Positions 18,451-19,941 of a stretch of DNA of 64,000 bases are shown here, piece after piece (position 1 is the stretch's first letter; every line of letters starts with the position of its first letter). Under the pieces are notes generated by a model. That model did no database searches, was not told the DNA's origin, and saw only the letters and a list, made by a program, of their open reading frames with translations. The position numbers and the translations under genes were made by a program. The stretch is from the NCBI RefSeq assembly GCF_014647455.2, contig NZ_BMPF01000001.1:620001-684000 (forward strand), read 5' to 3'. This stretch comes from Halarchaeum grantii (GTDB taxonomy: Archaea > Halobacteriota > Halobacteria > Halobacteriales > Halobacteriaceae).

Positions 18451-18458
18451 GAACGACC

Positions 18459-18547
18459 GTCTTTTTCCGTCAGGGGGTCGCGTAGCAACCCCCGTACCGC
18501 AAAAACACGGGAGAAAAAGGCCGAGCGCGTCGCGCTCGGTGAATCGC
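18459..18547 (+). ncRNA. Two-hairpin RNA motif, copy 1 (downstream of pdxS)
   Basis: A T-run (CTTTTTCCG) is followed by stem 1 (GGGGGT 18473-18478 with ACCCCC 18488-18493), a linker CCGCAAAAACACGGGAGAAA, stem 2 (CCGAGCGC 18521-18528 with GCGCTCGG 18532-18539) and a tail TGAATCGC. An inverted second copy at 19528-19618 keeps linker and tail but has different paired bases in both stems. It could be a 3' UTR element, a complex terminator or a stand-alone RNA; both copies sit just after a stop codon. Confidence 0.55.
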
Positions 18548-18666
18548 GCGAACTACCGGGTCCTGACGGACCGCTCGTTCGCGCGAATGCGATCCACAGA
18601 GAGCGTTAAATAGAGACGAACGCTCTATCGCGTCAAAACCAATCTACTTAGAGGTTGAAAGGACTG

Positions 18667-18681
18667 GCGTGCTGAATACAG
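18667..18681 (+). repeat. 15-base inverted repeat, left arm
   Basis: GCGTGCTGAATACAG is the exact reverse complement of 19304-19318. The two arms enclose about 620 bases with one small membrane-protein gene. I see no target-site duplication outside the arms. Confidence 0.5.
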
Positions 18682-18756
18682 GGCGCGAATACGGCACGGA
18701 GCGATTACGATGCGAGTGATCCCGTCTCGACCGACCTACACACCTATCGTGAAATC

Positions 18757-19158
18757 TCAGTCTGACCCAAACAGCGCTTTGGTGAGTTCGCCACCGTAGG
18801 CGAGTCTCGAACCGAGCCACAGCGCACCGAGGATGACGCCCACCGCTATGAGGTCGGGACCCGGCTCCGGAAAGTGGCTGCTCGCCACGCGGGCAAGAAG
18901 GCTCGCCAAGGCGACACCGCCGAACCACACAGCCAAGAAGGCGACGTGCTGGTGAAGGGACTTCCTTCGGCGTGCGTGACGGTAACCAACCACGAGAAAG
19001 CCCACGAGTAGCAGGACGCCTACAGCCGCAAGGGCGAGAGAGCGGATCTGCCCACCAAACAGAAACGCGGTGGAGAAGGCGATTACCGCCGCGAGAACAA
19101 AGATCGTCTGGACGACCAGTCCGAGAGATGGTTTAATATTGGAGGGCTGTTGGGGCAC
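18757..19158 (-). CDS. Small four-span membrane protein
   Basis: A 133-residue protein with four predicted membrane segments: about 14-34, 39-57, 70-90 and 100-118, with a basic HARRRKSLHQH loop between the second and third. The N-terminus MPQQPSNIKPSLG is soluble. No family is recognised. The gene is less G+C-rich than its neighbours and stands alone between two exact 15-base inverted repeats, themselves inside the inverted RNA motif copies. It may be a recent insertion. Confidence 0.5.
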   Translation of the reverse strand: MPQQPSNIKPSLGLVVQTIFVLAAVIAFSTAFLFGGQIRSLALAAVGVLLLVGFLVVGYRHARRRKSLHQHVAFLAVWFGGVALASLLARVASSHFPEPGPDLIAVGVILGALWLGSRLAYGGELTKALFGSD

Positions 19159-19303
19159 AGATTGCGGTTACGGACGACGAGGAGATGAATCTTCTCGACG
19201 TGACCGAATCCCGGCCATCCAGATTGGTTCTACCCTACGTTACCGACCAGACTGTCCATCGTGACGTTCACTGCTATCTCTGATACGTCACTAAGTACAT
19301 CCT
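19159..19303. other. Intergenic DNA, no gene seen
   Basis: Between the small membrane-protein gene and the right inverted-repeat arm I see no supported gene. Composition is more AT-rich than the core, and only short chance reading frames are open. Confidence 0.4.
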
Positions 19304-19318
19304 CTGTATTCAGCACGC
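19304..19318 (-). repeat. 15-base inverted repeat, right arm
   Basis: CTGTATTCAGCACGC is the exact reverse complement of 18667-18681. Confidence 0.5.
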
Positions 19319-19527
19319 TCCCGAGAACACCAATGATATCTGGCAGAACCCTCGGCGGTGGGTTTGCAGACCTACCTAACGGCTGGTGCACGAGAGTCGA
19401 CTGGGGATGGAGATTGATCCCTTACAGAGCTCCGGCGATGCTCCCCCGTAGTCGTACGTCTTCACCCGGTTGACCATGTCACGTGAGTAGCGTTCGCTGA
19501 TCGAGCGGTCTGGAAGACCCGAGCGAG
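19319..19527. other. Intergenic DNA, no gene seen
   Basis: About 200 bases between the inverted-repeat arm and the second RNA motif. I see no coding signal. Composition is closer to that of the 18.6-19.3 kb segment than to the chromosome core. Confidence 0.4.
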
Positions 19528-19618
19528 GCGATTCACCGGTCGCCTACGGCGACCGGCCTTTTTCACCCATGTTTTTGCGGGGACGGGTGCGCGAAGCGCA
19601 CCCGACCCGGAAAAAGAT
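19528..19618 (-). ncRNA. Two-hairpin RNA motif, copy 2 (downstream of the TFS gene)
   Basis: Read on the minus strand from just after the TFS stop: ATCTTTTTCCGG, stem 1 (CGGGTGCGC with GCGCACCCG, 19584-19604), linker CCGCAAAAACATGGGTGAAA, stem 2 (CCGGTCGCC with GGCGACCGG, 19536-19556) and tail TGAATCGC. It shares T-run, linker and tail with copy 1, while both stems are re-paired with different bases. Confidence 0.55.
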
Positions 19619-19620
19619 GG

Positions 19621-19941
19621 TTAGTTATAGTCGCGCCACCGGTGGCCGCACTCGGTGCACTTGAAGAAGCGCGTCGGCGGTTCGTCGGCGGCGCCGGTCT
19701 GTTTGATGGTGTACCACGCTTCGTCGTTCTCGCACTCCTCGCAGACGACGTCGGCGGTGGGTTTGCCTTCGTCGTCGGCGTCCTCGGTGGTCTCGATGAC
19801 GTCGCTGTCGTCCTGTGCGTCGGTGGAGACGAAGTCGGCGGCGCGCTCGTCGTCGCGGCCCTGCTCGTGGCCGCAGCTCGAGCAGACCATCACGCCGTCG
19901 GTGGCGTGCATCATGGAGCCGCATTCGTCGCAGAACTGCAT
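19621..19941 (-). CDS. tfs: Transcription factor S (TFIIS/Rpb9-like)
   Basis: A 106-residue TFS, which rescues arrested RNA polymerase by stimulating transcript cleavage. The N-terminal zinc ribbon has CDECG and CSSCG; the C-terminal ribbon has CEEC and CTECGHRWRDYN. The acidic Asp-Glu pair that enters the polymerase pore is in GAADEPPTRF. An acidic linker joins the ribbons. I chose the ATG at 19941, which gives the family start MQFCDECG. Confidence 0.93.
   Translation of the reverse strand: MQFCDECGSMMHATDGVMVCSSCGHEQGRDDERAADFVSTDAQDDSDVIETTEDADDEGKPTADVVCEECENDEAWYTIKQTGAADEPPTRFFKCTECGHRWRDYN

Follow-up and report, generated by a model that had tools for sequence, protein, structure and literature searches.

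A dispersed palindromic DNA element at gene boundaries in haloarchaea, a candidate portable two-way transcription terminator

The window analyzed here, a stretch of 64,000 nucleotides from Halarchaeum grantii, contains two copies of a folded repeat on opposite strands, one following pdxS (element A) and the other following the gene for the TFIIS zinc ribbon protein TFS (element B). Both lie where a preliminary description of the DNA had placed them (Table 1), and that description was also right in noting that the copies share a T-run, a linker and an TGAATCGC tail, while their stems differ in sequence and yet remain paired. It had, however, taken them for a two-hairpin motif. In the predicted fold the T-run and the linker pair with each other, the T-run with the linker AAAAAC, to form an outer helix around hairpin 1, and there are more than two hairpins: hairpin 2 comes after GAAAAAG, and a third hairpin comes after TGAATCGC. 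The complete plan thus reads P1 and T-run, hairpin 1, A-run and P1', GAAAAAG, hairpin 2, TGAA and, often, hairpin 3 and AYGCT. In both window copies the outer pairing is CCRU-C-UUUUU-C-CG ... CG-C-AAAAA-C-AYGG, with C.C mismatches flanking U5/A5, and in predicted folds of 136 copies the T-run pairs with the first A-run in 117 cases and with the second in 10. T-runs of the CTTTTTC type are present on both strands of the element, the order on the other strand being hairpin 2, then CTTTTTC, then GTTTTTG. The P1 arms covary (CCAT/ATGG, CGAA/TTCG, CCAC/GTGG, GCAA/TTGC). Their tetranucleotide resembles a lineage dialect, with CGAA/TTCG in all sampled copies of one family (f8), mostly CCAC/GTGG in another (f4), and CCAT or CCGT in the genus of the window.

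Table 1. Positions in the window of elements A and B, their parts and neighboring features.
Feature	Position	Strand	Remarks
pdxS (SOR/SNZ) stop codon	18448-18450	+	
Element A, 3' of pdxS	18455-18590	+	Covariance model; core 18455-18543; hairpin 3 and end AATGC to about 18590
Element A, P1 5' arm CCGT	18457-18460	+	Pairs with ACGG at 18507-18510 (fold)
Element A, sense T-run CTTTTTC	18461-18467	+	11 nt past pdxS stop; pairs with AAAAA at 18501-18505, C.C mismatch on each side
Element A, hairpin 1	18474-18495	+	
Element A, AAAAAC and P1 3' arm	18501-18510	+	Minus strand reads CCGTGTTTTT; fold
Element A, GAAAAAG	18513-18519	+	Minus strand CTTTTTC directly after hairpin 2; antisense terminator-like
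Element A, hairpin 2	18521-18539	+	9-nt arms, perfect
Element A, hairpin 3 (TCGCGCGAACTACCGG ... CCGCTCGTTCGCGCGA)	18544-18586	+	Same hairpin at L007 and L011
652-bp unit between the elements	18667-19318		Perfect 15-bp inverted repeats at 18667-18681 and 19304-19318
Gene for 133-aa predicted membrane protein	18757-19158	-	Within the 652-bp unit
Element B, 3' of TFS	19500-19622	-	Covariance model; core 19532-19622; hairpin 3 to about 19500
Element B, hairpin 2	19536-19556	-	
Element B, plus-strand CTTTTTC	19558-19564	+	Directly after hairpin 2; antisense-direction terminator-like
Element B, AAAAAC and ATGG arm	19567-19576	-	CCATGTTTTT on plus strand
Element B, T-run CTTTTTC	19610-19616	-	5 nt past TFS stop
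TFS (TFIIS zinc ribbon) stop codon	19623-19621	-	

The two copies had also been considered as possible inverted ends of a mobile unit enclosing about 1 kb, which is wrong as stated. The spacing varies, the orthologous facing pair in one congener (G002) being only about 300 bp apart, and this, in combination with the 652-bp inverted-repeat unit present in the interval, identifies the interval as a separate insert and not as part of the element. The unit is bounded by GCGTGCTGAATACAG and encodes a predicted membrane protein that has no match in Pfam; relatives with 67-79% identity occur in Haloferax massiliensis, Halogranum and Halorubrum, two of which adjoin other inverted repeats (L270 and L273, CTGTTGAAATCCT).

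A covariance model was built from 17 copies. Element A scored 81.7 bits and element B 100.9 bits, scores that place the pair far beyond chance, and the other matches in the window were only their antisense echoes. A second model gave 76.8 and 97.3 bits, respectively, and the single-copy fold z-scores of the two copies were -2.8 and -6.9. Pattern searches located a minimum of five copies in the genome of the window and further ones in 11 of 59 relatives; the reversed control gave no match. With the covariance model, about nine distinct copies above 30 bits were found in the genome of the window, two congeners gave 29 and 38 matches, part of them antisense echoes, and the family was present in 161 of 195 sampled Halobacteriales genomes and in 54 of 66 genera, the per-genome counts of this survey being lower bounds, bearing out the expectation of the preliminary description that further copies exist. 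Run over the whole phylum, the second model likewise recovered the family in most of the Halobacteriales sampled; outside this order just six genomes gave one match each (E 0.002-0.009), which is near chance. Named carriers of plasmid-borne copies include Halarchaeum, Haloarcula, Halomicrobium, Haloterrigena, Natrinema, Natronococcus, Natronosalvus and Halomontanus. No element was found in phages, and none of 16 matches to a short pattern in viral contigs was upheld by the covariance model. Scanning the locus against Rfam 15, also at a relaxed threshold, returned no relevant family and just spurious sub-threshold miRNA models, and a literature search, with most subscription literature outside its scope, found no description of the element. 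The two window copies are members of a large haloarchaeal family of folded DNA repeats of ~90-150 bases that apparently has not been described so far.

The stems of the family pair, as had also been anticipated, and they covary strongly. Among 110 distinct copies, 96.4% of stem cells are paired (73.2% when shuffled) and the covariation score is 0.501, compared to 0.109 for shuffled and at most 0.046 for slid alignments. The alignment of the 110 rows was fitted to the covariance model, and a MAFFT alignment of 17 copies agrees (0.316 versus 0.094). Two-sided change is seen at 25 of 29 pairs. Covariation of this strength, the conservation of the single-stranded linkers and the ability of the T-run to pair with either of two A-runs would be expected of a 3' UTR element, a small RNA or an attenuator working as a folded RNA. 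The pattern of change speaks against this reading, however: 637 changed stem cells are two-sided as opposed to about 26 one-sided, such that one-sided intermediates are rare, and G-U and A-C cells are equal overall (33 and 34), with the helices disagreeing on the strand (G-U to A-C 14:4 in hairpin 2, 0:9 in P1). Moreover, orthologous copies have exchanged entire hairpins. The TFS copies of two congeners (G000 and G002) have different first hairpins and almost the same hairpins 2 and 3; at pdxS, each of the three hairpins differs among three congeners; and in the comparison of G117 with G174, where P1 and hairpin 1 match exactly, hairpins 2 and 3 have been replaced, hairpin 3 retaining a similar core between two altered outer arms. 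In addition, a T-run located 3-15 nt past a gene would end transcription before the structure forms, and the element also sits upstream of promoters. A function as structured RNA thus appears decidedly unlikely, and the small RNA envisaged in the preliminary description is not supported, the loop of hairpin 1 being 3 nt long in 121 of 124 cases by a method that favors the longest perfect stem.

The large excess of two-sided over one-sided change, together with the parity of G-U and A-C, argues instead for exchange of palindromes and template-switch correction at the level of DNA, and against selection on one RNA strand. Homogenized arms and inverted spacers are known outcomes of template switching between inverted repeats (PMC8604942, PMC8794818), a process that, combined with exchange among copies, yields hairpin replacements and inverted inserts of the kind seen here. 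Perfect palindromy is thus probably maintained by DNA template switching between the arms and gene conversion among copies and not by the needs of one functional RNA strand, and hairpins are exchanged among copies as modules. The C.C positions flanking the T-run and A-run do not follow this pattern: they stay unpaired, with C in 107 and 99 of the 110 rows at the outer and in 79 and 99 at the inner positions, which argues against pure palindrome correction and suggests that they are kept for another reason. Both orientations of the hairpin-1 loop are present, unequally (TTC/GAA 22:7, TCC/GGA 17:15); flipping therefore occurs, and an equilibrium of loop flips was rejected. Two loci (L079:1501-1651 and L089:1501-1652) share an additional palindromic insert within hairpin 1, which they carry in opposite orientations.

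Individual elements behave as insertions. Comparison of the flanks in four congeners revealed that presence and absence differ at the same gene: one convergent gene pair encloses two facing elements in G002 and G003 and only a ~30 bp spacer in G000 and G001. Of the promoter-side copies, one is restricted to G001 and another to G000, and several other elements are absent in G000 only. On the left, the junction falls where the conserved block ends, and since the empty alleles lack the T-run, the T-run arrives with the element; the congener spacers are too diverged to place the right junction or a target duplication. At TFS the element is confined to the genus, TFS homologues outside it carrying none, and a third congener, G003, has a sister type instead, so that deep vertical inheritance at this gene was rejected; the TFS of G172 was discarded as an orthologue, as it is a paralogue. 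The sister family (CGACCTTTTGC ... GCAAAAGCTCG; L070, L073, L202, L207), of the same genus and likewise positioned directly after stop codons, follows the same plan of P1, T-run, hairpin 1, A-run, second A-run, hairpin 2, TGAACC and hairpin 3, but at the loci examined it carries T4 instead of T5 and different linkers.

With regard to the origin of copies, three tandem copies of a 142-bp unit comprising the whole element follow a regulator-like gene in G072 (L094:964-1389), and a similar array of three 182-bp units in G117 (L096) includes a duplication of the gene end. Several reverse-oriented copies (L084, L077 and L086 in G003, L244 and L263 in G174) are flanked by variable direct duplications of ~30-57 bp of the adjacent gene 3' end, some of which are themselves repeated. 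To judge from the tandem arrays and gene-end duplications, some copies may have arisen by replication slippage.

The variable occupancy, the tandem arrays, the lineage-biased P1 tetranucleotides, the plasmid-borne copies and the resemblance of AYGCT after hairpin 3 to a terminal oligonucleotide could all be accommodated by a selfish miniature mobile element, similar to REPs or PATEs, that inserts beside gene ends and promoters, its T-runs serving as ends or targets and termination being a side effect. We regard this as rather unlikely, since there is no linked transposase, element-rich genomes (G002, G010, G008, G044) lack a Y1 transposase (PF01797), and two genomes with Y1 genes (G080 with 8, G167 with 9) have no listed elements. 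As Y1 counts do not track element counts, mobilization by IS200/IS605 was rejected. Furthermore, the stop-codon class examined shows no target duplication, and the same genes carry the element in different families, which random insertion does not predict. From a canonical MITE, with its terminal inverted repeats and target duplication of fixed length, the element differs in that single copies have no repeated ends and that duplications, where seen, are of variable length.

Comparison with known repeats shows likeness and difference. Like the REP/BIME sequences of enterobacteria and pseudomonads, the elements are short, dispersed extragenic palindromes at gene ends, with about 9-38 matches per genome within the genus, and form mosaics of several palindromes and conserved linkers, with tandem arrays and modules in either orientation. 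Unlike REPs, they combine three different palindromes and carry T-runs on both strands, their stems vary much more, and they show neither a conserved GTAG/CGTC tag beside the palindromes (74 listed copies, judged by eye) nor an association with a Y1/RAYT transposase. With the IS605-derived PATEs of Haloquadratum (PMC3119063) they share a haloarchaeal host, the lack of coding capacity, palindromes with heterogeneous stems and the absence of target duplication. Hairpin 3 and AYGCT might correspond to the near-terminal palindrome and the short conserved terminal oligonucleotide of PATEs, the right end not being fixed by an empty site. Their exact placement at gene and promoter edges and their abundance in genomes without Y1 transposase set them apart from PATEs, as judged from descriptions of PATEs.

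To analyze placement, we examined the surroundings of 136 copies with a simple gene finder based on a codon model, which had retrieved most of the annotated genes of held-out records and the known genes of the window; closely related copies are included, so that the following counts are not fully independent. Where a gene or tRNA on the same strand lies to the left (n=99), the T-run starts 3-15 nt past its end in 79 cases, with a mode of 6 nt, just 3' of the gene as in archaeal T-run terminators. For comparison, a T5 lies within 17 nt of the stop codon in only 4 of 64 confident window genes, two of which are accounted for by elements A and B. Where the gene on the left is divergent (n=36), the commonest distance is 43-46 nt upstream of the start codon; this promoter class shows a T/A-rich box near -28, such that the element lies just outside the BRE/TATA-like region of a leaderless promoter. 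The right end of the 136 copies shows no comparably sharp placement. By context, 55 elements are convergent, 66 co-directional and 10 divergent, convergent elements making up 42% compared to 13% of neighbor pairs (10/75) and 13% of intergenic bases in the window. Facing pairs like that of the window occur between convergent genes at about ten loci, with spacings of about 120 to 1,000 bp. The same genes (for example argS, PhoU, CDC48-like and glutamate dehydrogenase-like, names judged from sequence) carry elements in different families, with different P1 sequences, which would indicate either repeated gain at preferred genes or old inheritance.

The convergent bias and the facing pairs, as well as perfect palindromes with 3-nt loops and equal G-U and A-C, might also reflect a BIME-like site of DNA topology, in which hairpin 1, shielded from transcription on both sides, would extrude, or bind gyrase, SMC or a nucleoid protein, and absorb supercoils between convergent genes. 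This seems quite unlikely: copies of the promoter-side class are not convergent, conservation is highest in the T-runs, and no binding protein was identified.

The stop-codon class and the promoter class are both most simply accounted for by a two-way terminator or insulator. We therefore consider the mosaic, dispersed, palindromic element at gene boundaries to be most likely a portable element of this kind, a reading to which we would give an even chance. The sense CTTTTTC just past a stop codon or tRNA would end the upstream transcript, while on the other strand hairpin 2, CCTTTTTC and then GTTTTTG would halt opposing transcription, coming either from a convergent gene or as read-through into a promoter. 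Hairpin 1 would thus be placed between two inward-facing T-runs. In Haloferax volcanii, T-stretches with a TC dinucleotide are established as terminators (PMC7237163). Like the element, they stand after genes, whereas the T-run here is part of a palindromic cassette that is dispersed and insertable and has T-runs on both of its strands. Of the suggestion of a haloarchaeal 3' UTR or terminator class, the part concerning gene 3' ends and termination is supported by the T-runs 3-15 nt past stop codons and tRNA ends and by their presence on both strands. Not all features agree with this reading: some promoter-class copies have no gene reading into the sense T-run, a plain T-run terminator needs neither P1 pairing nor the conserved C.C mismatches, and at least 55 nt follow the sense T-run, seemingly more than a terminator needs.

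More tentatively, the elements may be haloarchaea-wide mobile boundary cassettes: palindromic units that home to the exact edge of a transcription unit, either the end of a gene or the upstream edge of a promoter, and enclose a palindrome that is never transcribed between T-run terminators facing inward on both strands. They would spread with no Y1 transposase linked to them and replace whole arms or hairpins in a way that mimics RNA covariation. The family, which was missing from both Rfam and the literature searched, is a prominent part of haloarchaeal genomes throughout the order. Its strong two-sided covariation, usually read as proof of a functional RNA, comes here without a G-U excess and with module swaps, which is the expectation under turnover of DNA palindromes and is a warning for the interpretation of such signals. 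In archaea, where few terminator structures are recognized beyond T-runs, the element is a candidate for how transcription units are separated.
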